A stretch of DNA of 64,000 bases. Source: Pelagibius sp. Alg239-R121 (GTDB taxonomy: Bacteria; Pseudomonadota; Alphaproteobacteria; Kiloniellales; Kiloniellaceae). The notes beneath the pieces are model-generated. The model searched no databases. It saw only the letters and a program-made list of their open reading frames with translations, and was not told where the DNA came from. The stretch is from contig NZ_CAMZOF010000001.1 of the NCBI RefSeq assembly GCF_947331435.1, positions 372,001 to 436,000 of the forward strand. The letters are read 5' to 3'. Below, piece after piece: positions 14,776 through 41,046 of this stretch (positions are counted from its first letter, which is position 1; every line of letters begins with the position of its first letter). The translations under genes and the position numbers were made by a program.

Positions 14776-15495
14776 TTAGGCAGCGACCAGAACGCGCCGT
14801 TCCGCCAGCCGACCGCGGTCGGTCATGACTTCATAGCAGTCGAAATTGTGCTCTCGAGAGGTCGCAACCATTTCCTCGATATTGGCGGCACAGGGTTGGC
14901 GAAGGCCGTGATGTTCGATCAAGTCGCCAATGGGGGCATAGAAAATGCCGACACGCTGCAACAGGCGCAGCAAAGCCGGCTCCATGACCGCGAGCCAGTC
15001 TGTAATATCGTGCGACCGGCTGATCTCCATGATCGCCCGCATCAGTCCCAGCGTTATGTGTTGCATCACGACCGGCCTTCCGGGTGATTCACCACCATAC
15101 GCGGTATCCGAAAAGCGGCGCCGGAAATCCCGGGAAATTGCAAAGCGGGAAACCTCGGCGGTCTGGGCCAACGGAAAACGCCGGCGGTCGGAAAAGGCCG
15201 GATCGTCGCTGAACTCCTGCAACGGAAAACTCCGCAGGGGCTCATTGGGTCGGTGCCGGACCAACCGCACGCCCCCGGCGACATTACCACTTGCCCGGTG
15301 AATCAACAGCCCGTGCAGCGAATGCCCATCGTAGATATCGCGCTCAAGGCCTTCCGGGTTTTTCGCCTCGTAGGAATTTTCAACACAATAGACCTGATAG
15401 CGAAGCTGGAATGCTTTTAATTTCAGCTCATCGGTCGTTGCTTCGACAACTTCGAAATGATGATGAAACAGATCGACGAGACGTATATCCGCCAT
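14776..15495 (-). CDS. PEP-CTERM/exosortase system-associated acyltransferase, copy 1
   Basis: 239-residue member of the acyltransferase family that accompanies exosortase systems (GNAT-like fold related to N-acyl homoserine lactone synthases). Signature parts are LKAFQLRYQVYCVEN (26-40), the acidic DIYDGHSLHGLLIHR, GGVRLVRH, AEVSRFAISRDFRR and the HITLGLMRA...MEPALLRLL block. By family knowledge it is expected to move an acyl chain to an amino-acid-like acceptor, giving a lipid or signal; the product is not established. A second, longer copy lies at 40228-41046, next to the XrtA locus. Start ATG at 15495 with GAGG about 12 bases upstream. No other gene is near; a long AT-rich region lies upstream. 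Confidence 0.85.
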   Translation of the reverse strand: MADIRLVDLFHHHFEVVEATTDELKLKAFQLRYQVYCVENSYEAKNPEGLERDIYDGHSLHGLLIHRASGNVAGGVRLVRHRPNEPLRSFPLQEFSDDPAFSDRRRFPLAQTAEVSRFAISRDFRRRFSDTAYGGESPGRPVVMQHITLGLMRAIMEISRSHDITDWLAVMEPALLRLLQRVGIFYAPIGDLIEHHGLRQPCAANIEEMVATSREHNFDCYEVMTDRGRLAERRVLVAA

Positions 15496-20324: not shown

Positions 20325-20339
20325 TGGCACACGAATTGC
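20325..20339 (+). promoter_or_regulatory. sigma-54 (RpoN) promoter of PEP-CTERM gene 1
   Basis: TGGCACACGAATTGC matches the -24/-12 consensus (TGGCAC, N5, TTGC) with the invariant GG and GC exactly 12 bases apart. Transcription would start near 20351, about 30 bases before the ATG. The matching element before the second gene and the presence of the sigma-54 activator PrsR in this window support it. Confidence 0.85.
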
Positions 20340-20380
20340 TTATTTGAGGGGGAAGTTCATTAGCGAGGGTAGTGAAATCA

Positions 20381-21293: not shown

Positions 21294-21578
21294 GTGTTCT
21301 GATTGAGGCATTTCGGGCAGTGAGCAACAAGACTGCACGGCAAGGCACTAAGGTACTTTGGACAGCGTTTAACTGAGTGTTGATATATTTTACAGTCCCA
21401 TTCAACCCGATAAAGCGCTGTTTTAATTACCCTTTTTACTGTTCTGGACAATAATTCCGGTGATACTGCGCTGGCTGTGACTTTTTTGAGACTGGAATTT
21501 GTCGACGTATTTTACATTGCTGGGTTCGCCAAAAACCAAAATTCGCGTAAATCTTTGATAATCATTAGAAATTTTTCT
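21294..21578. other. spacer between the two PEP-CTERM genes
   Basis: This AT-rich spacer has no supported gene. It holds the control region of the second PEP-CTERM gene, including the candidate activator site at 21474 and GGACAATAATTCC at 21446-21458, which shares GACAAT with the dyad before the first gene. Confidence 0.4.
21474..21501 (+). promoter_or_regulatory. candidate upstream activator site for PrsR (copy 2)
   Basis: GCTGTGAC followed by TTTTTT and G-A-C repeats the start of the element at 20231, here 105 bp upstream of the sigma-54 promoter. Similarity after the octamer is partial, so the exact extent is uncertain. Confidence 0.35.
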
Positions 21579-21593
21579 TGGCATGCAGATTGC
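21579..21593 (+). promoter_or_regulatory. sigma-54 (RpoN) promoter of PEP-CTERM gene 2
   Basis: TGGCATGCAGATTGC has the invariant GG and GC 12 bases apart and keeps TTGC at -12; the sixth base (T for C) is the only departure from TGGCAC. The start would be near 21605, about 33 bases before the ATG, almost the same as in gene 1. Confidence 0.82.
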
Positions 21594-21637
21594 TTATAAA
21601 GTCGGGAAATTCACATTTGCTAGGATTCATCGTTATT

Positions 21638-22483
21638 ATGTCCAAGTTTTCGAAGATTTTGAGCGGTACGGCGGTAGCCTTGACCCTCTTTGTTGGTGTC
21701 GGTCAGGCATCCGCTGCCCTGATTACGGAATGGGGCTACGTAGTCCAGAGCGGTTTTTCCGACTTTGATCCTGCTGCTCCCAATCAGGGCGCTGCTCCCA
21801 ACGATACCACCAACAACGGTGTCGTGGGTTCTGCCCCTAACGCAGGTCTCGGCGGTCTGCCGACCGTTCTTTCCTGGGGTCAGGGAAGCGGTGGTCCTAG
21901 CCAGCTGTTCGTTACGCCGACGGTCAACAATCCGCCGAACCTCTTCACCAACGGCGCAGCTGTTGACGGCGCGATGCTGACGCATGCCAACAACACCATC
22001 TCGGGTGCCAGCCTGACGCTGACCAACGCGCAGCTGACTTCTACTCTGCTGCTGACGCCGTTGGCGCCAGTCGTCGGCGGACCGATCGGTCCTCTGCCGA
22101 TTATCTTCAACATTCTGTTTGAAGAAACTGCAAACGCCGGTATCGGCGGCGGTCAGTGTACCCCAGGAACCGGTGGCACCCCTTGTGCAGACATCTTCGT
22201 GCTGCAGGATCCGGGCGCTCTGTCGTTCGACCTTCTCATCGATGATTTCATCTATACGGTTGCTCTGACAGCTGCCGGCCTCGGCCCGCTGTCCGACGAA
22301 GCCTGTGCCGCTGCTGGCGAAGCAGCCGGCTGTGTCGGTTTCATCACGCTGGAAGGTCAGGACAACGAGCTCCAGACTTCCTTCACGATCACGGCGCGCG
22401 GTGTTCCTGAGCCCGGAACGCTGGCTTTGCTCGGCCTTGGCCTGCTCGGCCTCGGCATGGCACGCCGCCGCAAGGCTGCCTAA
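21638..22483 (+). CDS. PEP-CTERM exported protein 2 (THxN type)
   Basis: 281 residues, a close paralogue of the protein encoded just upstream along the whole length: MSKFSK start, signal peptide to about residue 26, ITEWGYVVQSGFS, NDTTNNGVVGS, NPPNLFTN, a THAN motif where the first copy has THNN, both Cys pairs, and the VPEPGTLALLGLGLLGLG sorting signal with an ARRRKAA tail. Exported and then handled by XrtA. The start ATG at 21638 is chosen by homology; AGGA lies 12 bases upstream, the same distance as in gene 1, and an upstream extension of the frame would cross the sigma-54 promoter. The pair arose by tandem duplication that also copied promoter and terminator. Confidence 0.93.
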   Translation: MSKFSKILSGTAVALTLFVGVGQASAALITEWGYVVQSGFSDFDPAAPNQGAAPNDTTNNGVVGSAPNAGLGGLPTVLSWGQGSGGPSQLFVTPTVNNPPNLFTNGAAVDGAMLTHANNTISGASLTLTNAQLTSTLLLTPLAPVVGGPIGPLPIIFNILFEETANAGIGGGQCTPGTGGTPCADIFVLQDPGALSFDLLIDDFIYTVALTAAGLGPLSDEACAAAGEAAGCVGFITLEGQDNELQTSFTITARGVPEPGTLALLGLGLLGLGMARRRKAA

Positions 22484-22781: not shown

Positions 22782-23996
22782 TTAAGGCGTCGTCGAGCTT
22801 TGCGCAGCGTCAGGGTGGGCGCCGGGATGGGCGTCGTGATTACGACCCGCGGCCGCGTCCCGCCATACTTGGGCGAAACCCGCCCAAACCGACCTCACGA
22901 CGGTACCGCGATAAGACGCATCGGTCGGAAGCTGCGTCATCAGACGGGCGTGAGCGGTTCCCAGCGCGTGATAAGGCAAACCTGGGAAGAGGTGATGCAA
23001 GGCGTGAAACCGAAGGCCGACCGGGCATAGCAATAGATTGATCAGGCCGCCGAAAGGTACATTCACCGAGTCTTCGATCTGCTGCGAAAATCCCATAGCA
23101 GTCTCATCGCTGCGATAGCGATGGGTTCCGCCGACCGCACGCAACGAGTTCATTGTCCCGACAAAGACCAAGACCATGTACCAGACCAAAGCGACATCCA
23201 GCGGCAAAAACCCAAAGACCAGCGCAAGGACCACACCGGCGGCATAGAAACTGGCAAGAGTCTCCTCGATGACCCAGCGCTTTCTCTCGGTTCCGCGTGA
23301 AGGAACGTCACGGGTAAAATCCATTTTCAGCGCCATGGCGGACGCGCGCGTCGTCACAAAGGACCGCAGCGGCCTGGAGAGCAGCGACAAGGGCGCGAGA
23401 AGACTGAAACGCAGGGCCGACAAGGGTGGCAGCGTAAAGTTCAAAAGAAAGTGCGCCGCAATGTGCCAAGGCGCCTGAGAGGCGAAGGGCAGGTACTCCC
23501 CGTCTTCCTTCGTCCCATAACGGTTCTTGTTATGATGTGCCTTGTGAATCCCGTGATAGAGAAAATCGGGTACCAGCAGGGGAATGCCGCAGAGTGCATT
23601 CCACGCGATACGAAAACCCGGGACCGCCGCTTTCTGAAGGTGCGCCAGCTCATGGGTAAAACAAACCGAGCGATAAAGCGCGAGACCGGCAATCAGAATA
23701 TAAAGCAGCTGAAGCTGCGACAGTGTTTCCGAGCCGACAGCCAGCGCGAAGGCAATCCAGCCGATGACAGCGCTCGTCAGAAAGTCCAACCAGTAGAGCC
23801 ACGGCTTGGGTGTATAAAGATTCGCAACGATGTCACGCATTTCCTTGACCGAAGGCTCTCCGGCGCGTGGTATGCCCGCGCTGGCGTCACGCGTATCAGC
23901 AGTTTGTTGCATCAATTCGCTCGAAACGTTCCCGTCTGCCACCACGGACTCTGAAGCAGGCAGATTGACTTCGGATTGTCTCAACGAGTCGGACAT
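22782..23996 (-). CDS. fatty acid desaturase family protein
   Basis: 404 residues. Three histidine boxes of membrane di-iron desaturases are present: HELAH (115-119), HKAHH (151-155) and HALHH (near 330), between four or more membrane segments. A long polar N-terminal extension (about 60 residues) precedes the first membrane segment, and the C-terminus is rich in His, Pro and Ala. It should introduce a double bond into, or hydroxylate, an acyl chain at the inner membrane; the substrate cannot be told. AAGG lies 8 bases before the ATG. Desaturase-like proteins are found in some exosortase regions, so it may modify a lipid used in the same envelope pathway as the acyltransferases, but this is a guess from location. 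Confidence 0.88.
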   Translation of the reverse strand: MSDSLRQSEVNLPASESVVADGNVSSELMQQTADTRDASAGIPRAGEPSVKEMRDIVANLYTPKPWLYWLDFLTSAVIGWIAFALAVGSETLSQLQLLYILIAGLALYRSVCFTHELAHLQKAAVPGFRIAWNALCGIPLLVPDFLYHGIHKAHHNKNRYGTKEDGEYLPFASQAPWHIAAHFLLNFTLPPLSALRFSLLAPLSLLSRPLRSFVTTRASAMALKMDFTRDVPSRGTERKRWVIEETLASFYAAGVVLALVFGFLPLDVALVWYMVLVFVGTMNSLRAVGGTHRYRSDETAMGFSQQIEDSVNVPFGGLINLLLCPVGLRFHALHHLFPGLPYHALGTAHARLMTQLPTDASYRGTVVRSVWAGFAQVWRDAAAGRNHDAHPGAHPDAAQSSTTP

Positions 23997-24282
23997 GAAT
24001 GGTACCTTGGCATCAATTGGATCACGGACTGGACTTTGGATTGAGCTTCAAAATGTTGGGCACTGGCACATTGACGACCAGAGAACTTCGCAAAACGCGC
24101 CAGCACAAAATGAAAACCGACACTACATGAATTAGCCCTAGCCGAAGAGATTTAAGCTTCTATAAAGATTTCGTTGGATCCAAGCCAATGCTCGTTGAAT
24201 CTCTGTGACCTCTGAAGAACGGACGTTAATTTTGTATATCCTGCGGGCCGGAATTCGCGGCAAATGCCTCAAATTGCGGATA

Positions 24283-25662
24283 ATGATGGAAAGTCATCGC
24301 GTGAACTCGAAAACCTCTGCGATCGCGGCCACGATCCTGACAGGCTGGATGCTGCTTACCGGCCCCATTGAACCCGCACAGGCTTCAAACCTCGTGACGC
24401 TTTGCGCACCTGAGAGCTCTCTCGACAACTGTCACTATCGCTCGTTTGGTGAAGCCATTGCGGCGCTTCAGGACGGAGACAGGCTTCAAATAGAAGCTGG
24501 CGAGTATCGAGAGGGCGCAATCCTTACCGCAAACCGCGTGACGATCGTCGCCTCAGAGGGCGCCGCCTTGCGGGATACTGCCGTAGACGGTAAGGCCGCG
24601 CTGGTCATTTTGGGGAACGATAACGTTATCGAAGGGCTGGAATGTTCCGGCATCGCCGTGCCGGCCCGCAATGGCGCCTGCATCCGCCTGCGCGGCCGAA
24701 ACCTGACCCTGCGAAAGGTTTATTTTCACGACAGCCAGCAGGGACTGCTATCGGGAGGCGAGGTTGGCGAGGTTGTCGTCGAGGACAGCAGATTCGAGCG
24801 CTTGGGTTCCGTCGGGCGGGCACACGCCATCTACATGAGTGGCGGTGATCACCTGATCGTACGGCGAAGCCATATCCTGTCGTCAAAGGATGAAGGACAT
24901 GAGATCAAGAGCCGCGCCCGCAGGACAACCATTGTGGACAGCGAAATAGGGTCTGGCCTTGGCCGGGACAGCCGGACCATAGATCTGCCCAATGGCGGCG
25001 AGATAACAATTACGAACAATATCATCCAAAAAGGCTCGAACAGCGTTAATCCAGACCTGATCGGCATCGCTTTGGAGAGAGACGTAAAACCGCATCCGGA
25101 AGGCAAGATCATCATTTCCGGGAATACGCTGATCATGGATCGGCCCGGCCGCGTTCTGCACTCCCTGGTTCCCGCCGAGATGACTGGTAACTTCATTGTT
25201 GCTGGCTCACCCCTTGGAGGGAATGAATGGTACCCAGACCGCTTGGCCGCCGGCCTGCCCATTGCACCCGCCCTTGAGCGCGTCGTGCTGGACGCCGGCA
25301 GCCAGGATGACCAATACAAGCGGACTTCGCAGTCGGAAGAAGACGCGGCCCTCGAGAGAACGGATTTATCTCAGGTCGACGGTGTTTTGGCATGGCGAGG
25401 CCACGCGCTGACTCTGACTTCGCCTGAGGTGTCCGTCGTCACACTGCTTTCGTCTCAACCCGGCAAAACAGCTTCGTTCAACGATCTTTACAGCCTTATT
25501 GAACCCGACAAAAGTGACACGTGGTCTTCAGCACACGACCGGCAAACGGTCGTGCTCAGCGCCATCAAGACTCTCCGCAGGAAATTCCGGAACGTCGACA
25601 ACTCCTTTACGGCCATGACGTTCAAACCCGGCGAGGGCATCGTCTGGGACGAGAAGCGATAG
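24283..25662 (+). CDS. exported beta-helix protein with C-terminal winged-helix domain
   Basis: 459 residues. A signal peptide spans about residues 8-33 (ILTGWMLLTG...AQAS). Residues 40-330 show the short repeated strands of a right-handed parallel beta-helix (RVTIVAS, NVIEGLECSG, NLTLRKVYFHDS, GEVVVEDSRFERLG, LIVRRSHILSSKDEGHEIKS, TIVDSEIGSG, EITITNNIIQKG). From about 368 to the end the sequence changes to a pattern fitting an OmpR/PhoB-type winged helix: HALTLTSPEVSVVTLL, SSQPGKTASFNDLYSLI, AIKTLRRKF and FKPGEGIVWDE (compare LRRKL and G-x-GY-x-W/L in that family). A DNA-binding fold on an exported protein is contradictory. Start uncertain: ATG 24283, ATG 24286 or GTG 24301 (with GGAAAG upstream) all keep the signal peptide. 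The end converges with ydcF, 5 bp apart. Confidence 0.75.
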   Translation: MMESHRVNSKTSAIAATILTGWMLLTGPIEPAQASNLVTLCAPESSLDNCHYRSFGEAIAALQDGDRLQIEAGEYREGAILTANRVTIVASEGAALRDTAVDGKAALVILGNDNVIEGLECSGIAVPARNGACIRLRGRNLTLRKVYFHDSQQGLLSGGEVGEVVVEDSRFERLGSVGRAHAIYMSGGDHLIVRRSHILSSKDEGHEIKSRARRTTIVDSEIGSGLGRDSRTIDLPNGGEITITNNIIQKGSNSVNPDLIGIALERDVKPHPEGKIIISGNTLIMDRPGRVLHSLVPAEMTGNFIVAGSPLGGNEWYPDRLAAGLPIAPALERVVLDAGSQDDQYKRTSQSEEDAALERTDLSQVDGVLAWRGHALTLTSPEVSVVTLLSSQPGKTASFNDLYSLIEPDKSDTWSSAHDRQTVVLSAIKTLRRKFRNVDNSFTAMTFKPGEGIVWDEKR

Positions 25663-26373: not shown

Positions 26374-29184
26374 CTAGCCGCCGAGCTCGCTCAAAAGCGC
26401 ACGCGCATCCGCCTCGGAAGCGAAGCCACTGTGTGCCTTGAGCAGATCATTGAGCTTGGATTTCGCATCCTCGACCCGGCCCGTCTCCTTTAACGCAAAG
26501 GCATAGTGAAACTGAACCTCAGGGTCCTTGGGTAGTTTCGCGCTGGCATCCGCCAACATCTCCACGCCCCGCGCCGCTTCGCCGCGTTGGACGAGAATCC
26601 AGCCCACCGTATCCATGATCGCCGGCAATCCAGGTGCGACCTTCAAGGCCTCTTCGCCATACTCCAGACCCCTGGGATCATTCTTTTCCTGATACAGCCA
26701 GGCCAGGTTGTTCAGGACAATCGGATTACCGGGATTGCTCTTGTTCAAAATCTCATAGTTCATGAGGGCATCGTCGTGATCGCCCGTTTCCAACTGTACT
26801 CCGGCCAGAACCAGGCGCGATGCCCTGTCATTTGCATTGGCTTCAACCCATGTCTTGAGGGGTGGCGCAGCCTCCGCCTTGTCCATCACCTGTGTACGGG
26901 CTCGGAACAAAGCGATGGCCAGAGGACCACTGGGACCCTTTTCCCATGCGGCTTCGTAAGCCTTTACCGCTTCCGGAAATTTTCCGCCCTGAATGAAAAC
27001 GTCTGCCATCAGCTGATGACCGTCCGGCGCATCCGGGAGTTTGTCGCGCAGGGCCTCAGCTGTTTTCGCTGCGGTTTCCAGATCGCCCTTGCCGATATCG
27101 ATTTCCACAAGTGCGCGATGAGCATCGCCATTGTCGGGCGCGATCCGAAGCAATTCTTCATAGGATTTGCGGGCCTCGTCGACATTGCCTGCAGAAGCCT
27201 GAGAGCGGGCCAGCAAGAACCGCCCGTTTATATAGGCGGGAGCGAGCGTAACCAGTTTCTCAAACTTCTCGGTCGCGACGTCAAACTTTCTTTGGCCAAC
27301 ATAAACCTGGCCAATGGCCTGCAAAACGCGTGGATTCTCGCCATGACGCTTTTCCAAATCCTCCAGAATCGGGGCCGCTAGATCGAATTCGTCCTGGCTG
27401 GCATGGTAATTGGCAAGACGTAACGGCGGAGCCACGGCCTCTGGATTGGAATCGATTGCCTTCTTCAGCCAATCAACCGCCCCATCTGAATTTCCGGCCG
27501 TCGCGTCCATCTCCGACAAGGCGATCATGGCGTTGACGTAACCGGGCTCCAGCTCGAGGATTTCCAGGTACCGTTTGCGGGCGTCCTCAGGCTTGTTCTC
27601 CACCATGTCCAGGCGCGCAACGTTCATTCGCGCCGGCAGATAGTCTGCATGTGCCTCGATCGCCTCTTCAAAGACCTTTCGTGCTTCGGCCCTTTCACCC
27701 CTTACGCTCAAAGCACTGCCAAGCAGGTTGAAAGGAATCGGACTCTCCGGCAGATCCTTGCGAAGCTGTGTCGCGACCTCCAGAGCCTCGTCGAGTTTGC
27801 CGGTTCTGATCTGCATCTGGGCAAGTATGATCTTCGATGCAGAGGCATCAGGACCACCGATGTCGGGCGATGCTTCCAGCACGTTGATGGCTTCTTCGGT
27901 CTGACCCGACCGCAAGTGACTGACTGCGAGACCACGTGCGATTTTCACGTCTTCGGGTGCCAGGTCTGTGGCGCGATCCAGATAGGTCGTGGCCTCCGAA
28001 TAACGCTGTGCCCGCAGATAGGCCTCGCCGAGCATCGCGAGAGCCTGCGGATCGTCCGGCCTGGCTTCGGCAAGGGGCTCGAGAATGCCAAGGGCGCGGT
28101 CCAGTTCACCCTTCCGCAGATAAGTTGCCGAGAGGATTTTTTTCGCCGGCACATAGTCTGGAAACCGTGCAAGGTAACCGGTCAAATAGCTTTGCGCCCG
28201 TTCCAATTCGTTGGTCGCATAACTGATCGCGCCAGCCAGATAAAGCGCCGGCGCAAAACTGTCGAGATAGGGACCGATCTCCTGAATGGCGTCACGCGCA
28301 GCTTCAAAGTCCCGGGCCTTGGTCAGCACGAGCGCACTTAGATAATGGGCTGTCGGATGCCGGGGGGCGAATTGCTTCACCGCATCCAGATCGGCCTGTG
28401 CTTCCGTATCTTTGTTTTGGGCGATCAGGGACGTCGCCCGGCCGAGCAAAGCCGGGATGTTGCTGGCGCTGAGTTGCAATACCTTATCGAAACTCGCGAT
28501 CGCACCGTCAAAATCACTGGCAAAGCGGCGCAGTTCAGCCTTAACCAACAAGGCATCGACCGAATCCGGGGTCAGGGCGAGCGCACTGTCGATCTTCGCT
28601 TCGGCTTCCGGGAACTTCCGCTCGGCGCCGTAAATACGGCCCTGCAGTATCTTCGCCCGCGCATCCTGCGGACTGAGCTCGGCGGCAGCATTCGCCTCTT
28701 CGATCGCCTGATCGAATTGCGAAAGGCCGAGATGTCCGCGCCCTCTGATCAGCCGTACATCGGTTTCAAAGGCAGTGTCCCGGTTGCCGGTTTCGACCTC
28801 AGCCAGCGCTTCGGCGAATTTTCGCTGCTGCAGATAAGCCTGCCCCAGAGGGATGAGAATCGTATCCCTTGCGACACCTCTGGTCTCTGCCGCTTTCAAT
28901 TCCTTTTCCGCCGATGCGCCGTCGCCGATCTGCACGTAGATCCGGCCCAGCAGCATCCGCGCTTCCACGTTGTCTCGATCCTGCTGTAGTGCATTTTTCA
29001 GCTGAATGATCGCTGGATTGAGCTGTCCCTGCTGAAAGTAGACCAGCGCCTCCTCGTAGTAGGCAACGGATTTACTGCTATCAGTTGCCGCTTGCAGTGA
29101 AACAGGCGCAAGCAATGCCAAAGTCATTGCGACGGTCGCCAGCAGGCGGGTTCGCTTCGTTCTGGGTTCAGATCGGTTTGACAT
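26374..29184 (-). CDS. prsT: XrtA/PEP-CTERM system TPR-repeat protein PrsT
   Basis: 936 residues. A signal peptide (about 1-32, ends SLQA) is followed by an almost unbroken array of tetratricopeptide repeats; the first (AYYEEALVYFQQGQLNPAI) and many later ones keep the W-LG-Y-A-F-A-P spacing. Length and the very high repeat number match PrsT, a protein found with exosortase A systems and usually near prsK and prsR. As a periplasmic TPR scaffold it probably holds parts of the polysaccharide export or sorting machine together. I chose the second ATG (29184), with AGGGA about 7 bases upstream, instead of the ATG at 29202, which lacks a ribosome site. Confidence 0.93.
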   Translation of the reverse strand: MSNRSEPRTKRTRLLATVAMTLALLAPVSLQAATDSSKSVAYYEEALVYFQQGQLNPAIIQLKNALQQDRDNVEARMLLGRIYVQIGDGASAEKELKAAETRGVARDTILIPLGQAYLQQRKFAEALAEVETGNRDTAFETDVRLIRGRGHLGLSQFDQAIEEANAAAELSPQDARAKILQGRIYGAERKFPEAEAKIDSALALTPDSVDALLVKAELRRFASDFDGAIASFDKVLQLSASNIPALLGRATSLIAQNKDTEAQADLDAVKQFAPRHPTAHYLSALVLTKARDFEAARDAIQEIGPYLDSFAPALYLAGAISYATNELERAQSYLTGYLARFPDYVPAKKILSATYLRKGELDRALGILEPLAEARPDDPQALAMLGEAYLRAQRYSEATTYLDRATDLAPEDVKIARGLAVSHLRSGQTEEAINVLEASPDIGGPDASASKIILAQMQIRTGKLDEALEVATQLRKDLPESPIPFNLLGSALSVRGERAEARKVFEEAIEAHADYLPARMNVARLDMVENKPEDARKRYLEILELEPGYVNAMIALSEMDATAGNSDGAVDWLKKAIDSNPEAVAPPLRLANYHASQDEFDLAAPILEDLEKRHGENPRVLQAIGQVYVGQRKFDVATEKFEKLVTLAPAYINGRFLLARSQASAGNVDEARKSYEELLRIAPDNGDAHRALVEIDIGKGDLETAAKTAEALRDKLPDAPDGHQLMADVFIQGGKFPEAVKAYEAAWEKGPSGPLAIALFRARTQVMDKAEAAPPLKTWVEANANDRASRLVLAGVQLETGDHDDALMNYEILNKSNPGNPIVLNNLAWLYQEKNDPRGLEYGEEALKVAPGLPAIMDTVGWILVQRGEAARGVEMLADASAKLPKDPEVQFHYAFALKETGRVEDAKSKLNDLLKAHSGFASEADARALLSELGG

Positions 29185-29444
29185 ATTCTTGTCCCTGCTC
29201 ATTCGCTTTCGGGGTCATTTCGTAACCTGACATCGGTCACATCGCCTTCTCGGCGCTCAAGTCTGCCTGATGATAGATCATTCGAGGTTCAGCTGTCCTG
29301 AATCTGAACCTATTCGAGGATAATCCGTTGATCAAAAGGACGCGAGCCATCCAACACGCCAAGTGAGATGTAAGTGCACCAACTAATTAAAACAATACAA
29401 TATCCTAATATCTTAACACAGTTTGGATCAATCCGCGTCATCTG

Positions 29445-40227: not shown

Positions 40228-41046
40228 TCAGCTGTCGCCCGATGCCGCCTTGGGCAGAAGCTGGCCGTCATCGGTACCGACCTCCCAGAACTCCCGCCGG
40301 GCCTCGCGCGAGGTTTTCAGCAGCGTTTCCAGTGCGGCATAGCAGGGCTGGCGGCGGCCGTGATAATTCACGACCGGTCCGATCGGCTCGAACTCCAGGC
40401 CGAAACGGTGAAGCAGACGAATCAGAGCGGGCTCCATCACAGCACAAACATGGGTGATGTCATGCTCTATGCACATCCGTAAGACGCTTTTCATAAGGCC
40501 CAACGTGATATGCGGAAGAACACGGCGCTCGAGCTTTTTGCGTTCTACCGGGCTATCTTCACTCTTCGCCCAATTGACATCTGCATAGCGTTCCTCGCCT
40601 GCACGACGCCGAAACTCACGGGAGATGGCGTAGCGGGAGATTTCGGCGGTCGTCTCCTCGGGAAAGGGGATCCGTTCGGTCTGCCAGACATCCTGGATCG
40701 GAAGCCGATAGGCGGAAGCCTTAGCAGGCAGGATCAAGCGCACGGCACCCATGGTGGTCTGGGTAGGGCGATGGATCAGCAGGCTGTGTACGGAGTGTGG
40801 ATCGTATTCATCCATCTCCATTTCATTGGGATTGCCTGCGGGGTCCTCAAAGGGGTTCTCGACGCAGTACACCTGGTACCGGAGGCGATGCGCCTGCTCG
40901 ATCTCTTCCGCCGTAATCGCCGGCTTGGTCTCGAACCAGTGCTTGAAAAGCTCTGCTAGGCGGGCGTTCTCAGAAGGCGCCGCGGGCAGACCGGACACAG
41001 ACATTTGACTCGGTGTCGCAAGTGTCTGCGATTGAACAACGGCCAT
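40228..41046 (-). CDS. PEP-CTERM/exosortase system-associated acyltransferase, copy 2
   Basis: 272 residues. Same family as the protein at 14776-15495: AHRLRYQVYCVENPFED, DEYDPHSVHSLLIHR, MGAVRLILP, AEISRYAISREFRRR, HITLGLMKSVLRMC and VMEPALIRLLHRFG are conserved between the two. This copy has a longer N-terminus and an inserted segment with PVERKKLERRVLP. The fold is related to N-acyl homoserine lactone synthases; the product is expected to be an acylated small molecule, unproven. AGGAG lies 7 bases before the ATG. It stands between the DUF1302 operon and the XrtA polysaccharide locus, separated from the latter by 231 AT-rich bp. Confidence 0.87.
   Translation of the reverse strand: MAVVQSQTLATPSQMSVSGLPAAPSENARLAELFKHWFETKPAITAEEIEQAHRLRYQVYCVENPFEDPAGNPNEMEMDEYDPHSVHSLLIHRPTQTTMGAVRLILPAKASAYRLPIQDVWQTERIPFPEETTAEISRYAISREFRRRAGEERYADVNWAKSEDSPVERKKLERRVLPHITLGLMKSVLRMCIEHDITHVCAVMEPALIRLLHRFGLEFEPIGPVVNYHGRRQPCYAALETLLKTSREARREFWEVGTDDGQLLPKAASGDS

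Follow-up and report, generated by a model that had tools for sequence, protein, structure and literature searches.

The output domains of response regulators (RRs) are generally cytoplasmic DNA binders. In the available text of PMC3973317, Arg201 of PhoB makes a specific hydrogen bond to guanine, and the loop between helices alpha2 and alpha3 of PhoB is its RNA-polymerase loop, activation being lost in four mutants. According to the available text of PMC5430869, CadC, PhoB and PmrA share five conserved positions that contact DNA. Narrow word searches of open-licence PMC papers returned no description of an exported winged helix of the RR type. In this study, I analyzed a stretch of 64,000 nucleotides (hereafter, the window) from Pelagibius sp. 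Alg239-R121, in which the gene of an apparently exported beta-helix protein ends in such a domain.

Layout of the fusion gene

It was found that a 459-codon open frame without internal stops lies at 24283-25662 on the plus strand of the window. Its parts are as follows.

24283..24387, plus strand: signal peptide (residues 1-35), with the h-region SAIAATILTGWMLL and a putative cut after AQA, assigned by eye
24388..25287, plus strand: right-handed parallel beta-helix (residues 36-335), from PF13229 and a 10-sequence alignment
25288..25386, plus strand: linker (residues 336-368), variable
25387..25653, plus strand: winged helix derived from an RR (residues 369-457), from Pfam, blastp, an RR profile, hhalign and a tree
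25504..25542, plus strand: alpha2-alpha3 loop, the RNA-polymerase loop of PhoB (residues 408-420)
25543..25590, plus strand: recognition helix equivalent QTVVLSAIKTLRRKFR (residues 421-436)
25615..25647, plus strand: wing equivalent MTFKPGEGIVW (residues 445-455)

The same three-part protein is present in all four genomes of the genus Pelagibius that were examined, namely the window's own genome (G000) and three other genus members (G001, G002, and G003), whose orthologues are 70-73% identical to the window copy. Each genome has a single open frame for the fusion gene. An earlier reading of the window, made from the letters alone (hereafter, the sequence-only reading), had named a frameshift joining two genes as an outcome that would refute it. 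The fusion is intact in all four genomes, and the chance of an assembly frameshift or chimera is practically nil, being ruled out by the three orthologues with one open frame each and by the conserved gene order.

Homology and origin of the winged helix

The sequence-only reading had proposed a winged helix of the OmpR/PhoB type at the C-terminus. The comparisons bear this out: a profile built from 21 nearby RRs matches the ORF at E 1.4e-14, and hhalign against RR output domains gave a probability of 98.7 and E 2.5e-16 over 87 columns with no gaps. A blastp search with the region of residues 369-457 matched response regulators at E 1e-10 to 8e-9, and the region has a PDB match to BaeR (4b09) at E 0.0018. 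The order of motifs pointed out earlier is real, is collinear with RR output domains and recurs in the three orthologues. The Trans_reg_C profile (PF00486), a search suggested in the sequence-only reading, does find the domain, scoring 16.8 bits on the complete ORF and 20.2 bits (E 6.2e-4) on the C-terminal 127 residues by themselves, but the curated cut-off of 26.2 bits is reached neither by the window protein nor by its orthologues (17.1-21.1 bits). Taken together, chance similarity between the C-terminal domain and RR output domains is not a credible account. The receiver domain (Response_reg) gave no match in the ORF at E <= 10. TIGR02595 gave no match either, and the protein ends in the winged helix, so it does not count as a PEP-CTERM protein.

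Where did the domain come from? The window's own genome has PF00486 matches at E <= 0.01 in 30 places, 26 of them above the cut-off. When a profile of the four fusions was run against this genome, the best other match was a 264-aa RR (46 bits), followed by a ChvI-type RR (26 bits). A tree was built from 42 domains, comprising the four fusions, 16 of the 32 distinct RRs of the 264 type (every second one) and 22 of the 26 own-genome loci above the cut-off, the other four loci not having been recovered. The fusions fall inside the clade of 264-type RRs with support of 99/100 and a branch length of 5.63; this very long branch calls for caution, and the placement goes no further than the clade. By profile score and tree position, the predicted parent of the winged helix is the 264-aa RR type of the same order. 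ChvI was rejected as the parent since the ChvI-type RR is another gene (L116) that scores lower. It lies near RapZ, and the neighbouring kinase carries Stimulus_sens_1 and Sensor_TM1 domains, which mark ChvG.

The gene of the 264-aa RR (G000:C3, L115, 4232-6621) adjoins that of a 531-aa histidine kinase, and the two form a two-component pair distinct from the ChvI-type RR. Matches to the 264 type at E <= 1e-6 were found in 53 of 59 genomes of the order, mostly in frames of 250-300 aa, so that the majority of genomes in the order appear to have RRs of this type. The 32 distinct sequences are those among the fetched loci with an RR profile score above 300 bits. One genome (G056, L110) has a variant beside Wzc-like, Wza-like, galE-like, and manC-like frames. 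Neither the RR alignment nor the beta-helix alignment had viral relatives. PADLOC gave no match, and PHROGs gave two weak matches whose function is unknown in PHROGs.

Residues kept and lost

All four genus genomes still encode RRs of the parent type, and the change can therefore be traced residue by residue. A column was called RR-invariant when one residue occupies it in at least 95% of the 32 distinct 264-type RRs, which gave 42 columns; the borders of the regions within the winged helix were set by analogy. Across the four fusions, 20 of these columns are kept in all, 20 are lost and 2 are partly kept. The N-terminal sheet and alpha1 keep 6 of 7 columns and alpha2 keeps 1 of 5. None of the 6 columns in the alpha2-alpha3 loop is kept in all four fusions (five are lost in all four and one is kept in a single sequence). 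In alpha3, 7 of 11 are kept, and all four fusions share the changes N423 to V or I, R425 to L, and R430 to T, together with a mild change of I431 to L. The wing keeps 4 of 9, retaining P, G, G, and W; I, N, Y, Y, and R are gone, including the RR residues Y453 and R454. Of the remaining columns, two, both lost, fall where the alignment has a gap, and another two, both kept, lie between regions.

The basic helix residues K429, R432, K434, and R436 are retained in all four fusions. The recognition helix equivalent has a charge of +5 to +6 in the fusions and +7 to +8 in the RRs, and the whole winged-helix domain has a charge of -2 to +1 in the fusions against an RR mean of +1.2. Since the fused domain is near neutral and so is the RR domain, charge decides little. 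Within the genus, the recognition helix equivalent (11 of 16 columns identical) and the wing (9 of 13) are the best-conserved parts, but with new residues.

R430 aligns with Arg201 of PhoB. Loss at this position alone is no proof of lost DNA binding, because two regulators, PmrA (in the available text of PMC3973317) and BaeR, have Asn there. Among the five contact positions named for CadC, PhoB, and PmrA in the part of PMC5430869 that is available, the fusions keep one, the arginine R432, and the parent RRs already differ at three; both counts follow my own placement. The fusions have not retained the full set of residues with which the parent RR type contacts DNA and RNA polymerase; variation at individual positions is also seen in other, genuine regulators. 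Judged from these columns, the fused domain has likely lost sequence-specific reading of DNA.

The beta-helix family

The beta-helix named by the sequence-only reading is supported by a PF13229 match of 32.2 bits (E 9.6e-8, residues 108-252), above the cut-off of 25.9 bits. In the 10-sequence alignment, the polar motifs NGAC-R, GRAH-Y or GQAH-Y, SKDEGHEIKSRA, and DS--D are invariant in the family. The libraries searched hold no specific model for this family. The NosD copper maturation protein model TIGR04247 gave 23.5 bits, whereas 300 are required. No close relative among solved structures was found, the best being a pectinesterase at E 0.12, and a known enzyme identity was rejected on this ground. 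Nor could the invariant polar motifs, considered for a polysaccharide lyase or epimerase, be matched to a solved enzyme.

Is the winged helix common in the family? Single-domain relatives, 40-46% identical, are known from Colwellia, Thalassotalea, Aestuariibacter, Neptunicella, Catenovulum, and Photobacterium (L001-L007 and L009, with L004 and L005 on separate contigs of a single strain). Further relatives were found in two alphaproteobacterial metagenome genomes (L008 and L010) and in G047, G053, G051, and others of the order. At E <= 1e-15, 12 of 61 genomes of the order have a beta-helix match; all their loci were fetched, and the two domains occur together in the four genus members alone. 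The search for the same domain order that the sequence-only reading had called for thus found the fusion, with a shared neighbourhood, in these four alone among the order loci. Among 398 genomes of the phylum, nothing but the window's own domain reached E <= 1e-13 with a profile of the four winged helices. In the class sample, 30 of 385 genomes have a beta-helix match, and no second domain was found in the 18 of these loci that were scanned (L059-L076); the G428 contig (L059, L117) stops immediately past the beta-helix, and a lost tail is possible there. Eight plasmid records match the beta-helix, none over 80% of the query. The four fused beta-helices form one clade with support of 100/100, so a single gain is the simplest account.

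The window's genome also has a paralogue (G000:C1:443153, L044, 5465-8095) about 5-8 kb beyond the window end. It is 50% identical and carries a Kelch-like propeller (a weak Pfam match) in front of a beta-helix of the same family, with no winged helix. This propeller-beta-helix protein is encoded near the same exopolysaccharide (EPS) locus in all four genus genomes; the copy in the window's genome has one TGA within the matched stretch. Other relatives (L061-L076) carry long additional segments N-terminal or C-terminal to the helix, in frames of up to 849 aa among the fetched loci.

The EPS locus and its regulation

The window contains a large XrtA/PEP-CTERM EPS locus with exosortase XrtA carrying an EpsI domain, an amidotransferase, PrsK, PrsR, and PrsT. 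It also has chain-length, export, tyrosine-kinase, deacetylase, FemAB, and glycosyltransferase genes. Two genes for exosortase-associated acyltransferases (TIGR03694) lie at 14776-15495 and 40228-41046. The nearest genes considered here are listed below.

21578..22483, plus strand: THxN PEP-CTERM protein, upstream neighbour of the fusion gene
22782-23996, minus strand: fatty-acid desaturase, flanked by the PEP-CTERM gene and the fusion gene, in the window only
26374..29202, minus strand: PrsT (TIGR02917, 733.7 bits), neighbour of the fusion gene

The fusion gene indeed lies between PEP-CTERM genes and prsT, as had been stated. Four genomes share the order of PEP-CTERM genes, fusion gene, DUF218, PrsT, FAD-linked oxidase-like, PrsK, and PrsR; the desaturase has no match in the 20-kb stretches of G001-G003. 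Several of the single-domain relatives have comparable surroundings. In Catenovulum (L009), the beta-helix gene directly follows a run of XrtA-locus homologues including an amidotransferase and an exosortase, and a Wzy-type ligase gene lies downstream. In two Photobacterium species (L004-L006), the neighbourhood includes a TPR protein that shares 24-25% identity with PrsT. The Neptunicella gene (L007) is near an amidotransferase homologue, manC, and a PrsT-like frame, and in Thalassotalea (L003) a UDP-glucose/GDP-mannose dehydrogenase gene follows. Neighbourhoods not of the EPS type were also seen: L048 (G047) is near a CoA-ligase-type gene, and L004 is flanked on one side by a helicase gene.

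I searched for promoters with the sigma-54 -24/-12 consensus. Sites resembling it are present at two THxN PEP-CTERM genes, at 20325-20340 (exact) and 21579-21594 (one mismatch), the latter overlapping the PEP-CTERM ORF (21578..22483) as listed; at up to two mismatches, the pattern occurs 30 times in the window against 30.7 expected by chance. Similar sites lie by PEP-CTERM genes in G001-G003. Upstream of the fusion gene (23576-24283), no site was found at up to two mismatches, nor was a site found before the orthologues with a near-exact pattern. Control of the fusion gene by PrsR was rejected on the lack of a sigma-54 site. Sigma-54 sites at PEP-CTERM genes are described in the available text of Haft et al. 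(PMC1569441).

Export, topology and start codon

The signal peptide claimed by the sequence-only reading was recognized again by eye: in all four genus members, a hydrophobic stretch is followed by A-x-A and then S-N (or S-S), and this layout is common to all although the sequences are merely 14-34% identical there. In a 19-residue Kyte-Doolittle scan, the N-terminal stretches score 1.32-2.01 and the best internal stretches of the four orthologues, in or just after the beta-helix, score 1.10-1.44, a modest contrast. By the hydropathy scan alone, none of the four has a clear second transmembrane segment, and none lies between the beta-helix and the winged helix. The protein thus appears to be exported, and with no second membrane segment evident, an exported beta-helix would keep the winged helix outside too.

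The true start is uncertain, as the frame is open from 24205, upstream of the listed start. In G001-G003 (L041-L043), an ATG (MSRA) stands behind a Shine-Dalgarno-like sequence about 40 residues ahead of the hydrophobic stretch, which would give an unusually long N-terminus before the signal peptide. No Shine-Dalgarno-like word of this kind was found in the window copy.

Selection, function and rival explanations

In the reading that I moderately favour, the fusion is an exported protein of the XrtA/PEP-CTERM EPS locus whose RR winged helix would have been repurposed as a non-transcriptional accessory binding module. In the genus ancestor, the output domain of a 264-aa OmpR-family RR would have joined the gene, in a single event by the simplest account. 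Outside the cytoplasm, the domain would have retained much of its core and lost many of the RR-invariant residues for DNA and RNA polymerase, and it would now be under selection with new surface residues. The beta-helix, from a family found partly in EPS loci, probably binds or modifies the polymer, as I infer from its place, its export and the invariant polar motifs. The winged helix would most likely bind a partner protein, another copy of itself, or the anionic polymer. The likely mechanism is exaptation, in which an RR output domain became an accessory module on an exported EPS protein. Of the three options offered by the sequence-only reading, the best fit is a winged helix turned to the binding of protein or sugar, because many of the contact columns are lost, much of the core is kept and selection is purifying. 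Its suggestion that the protein senses the polymer may hold, and is drawn from the location of the gene.

What if the domain is a neutral remnant, a tail left by a chance fusion and without function? The long tree branch, the loss of 20 of 42 RR-invariant columns and the fact that beta-helix relatives manage without a winged helix are in keeping with it. The substitution rates argue against it. NG86 dN/dS estimates, taken from four orthologues of one genus with dS saturated in most pairs, range over 0.13-0.16 for the winged helix (four of six pairs, those with computable dS) and 0.05-0.15 for the beta-helix (five of six pairs). The one low-dS pair, G001/G003, gave 0.126 for the winged helix, 0.153 for the beta-helix, and 0.37 for the linker (24 codons). 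In this pair, the winged helix is 94% identical and the linker 79%; in pairs with G000, the values are 62-68% for the winged helix and 25-29% for the linker (residues 336-362). By these estimates, the winged helix is under purifying selection while the linker drifts. A useless tail would be expected to drift like the linker, and I regard the remnant as improbable. It is also unlikely that the winged helix still binds nucleic acid outside the cell and tethers the protein to extracellular matrix DNA. The helix remains basic with its four conserved residues, and CadC binds DNA mainly by non-sequence-specific contacts according to the available text of PMC5430869, but Y453 and R454 of the RR wing have disappeared, as have three polar residues that are invariant in the RR helix. 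A doubtful reading, though a slightly more probable one, is that the basic recognition helix has exchanged DNA for the anionic exopolysaccharide of the XrtA locus as its ligand, the anionic nature of the polymer being assumed. It is prompted by the helix being still basic and, with the wing, best conserved in the genus.

The other two options of the sequence-only reading would place the winged helix in the cytoplasm, and they fared poorly. A cytoplasmic form, arising from failed export or an internal start, might act as a regulator; the domain does descend from one, and there are start codons in the linker, with an ATG (MVV) in G001, G002, and G003 and a Shine-Dalgarno-like GGAG in G001 only. 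The window copy lacks this ATG, no start codon with a ribosome-binding site within the linker is common to the four (an internal start was rejected for this reason), the RNA-polymerase loop is lost and there is no receiver domain. Such a cytoplasmic pool has little support and only a small chance of being right. An anchored regulator like ToxR in reverse order, with the beta-helix outside and the winged helix inside, is very unlikely. The N-terminal hydrophobic stretch might remain uncut, and the upstream ATG of G001-G003 would extend the N-terminus, but a single N-terminal anchor puts both domains on one side, and a second clear transmembrane stretch is absent in all four proteins (best internal score 1.44).

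The fusion is a real and unusual finding. An RR output domain has apparently been relocated outside the cytoplasm, with many of its DNA-reading residues gone, and has been retained by selection. It also draws attention to a beta-helix family without a specific model, several members of which lie in exosortase/EPS loci of Alphaproteobacteria and Gammaproteobacteria.

Comparison with known systems

The fusion resembles the OmpR/PhoB-family RRs, represented by the 264-aa RR (L115), in an output domain that is collinear over 87 columns and falls in the same tree clade. It differs from them in having no receiver domain, in being apparently exported and in the many changed residues on the surfaces for DNA and RNA polymerase. 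Like the membrane regulators of the ToxR/CadC type, it joins a winged helix to an exported domain. In those regulators, however, the winged helix is N-terminal, cytoplasmic and followed by a transmembrane helix, whereas in the fusion it is C-terminal and no such helix is evident. The single-domain beta-helix proteins (L001-L009, G047, and G053) share a beta-helix that is 40-51% identical, and several of them are also encoded in exosortase/EPS loci; they end shortly after the beta-helix, where the fusion carries on into the winged helix. Within the same genomes, the paralogue L044 has a beta-helix of the same family (50% identical) and likewise occurs in all four genus members. It differs in carrying a Kelch-like propeller in front and in lacking the winged helix.
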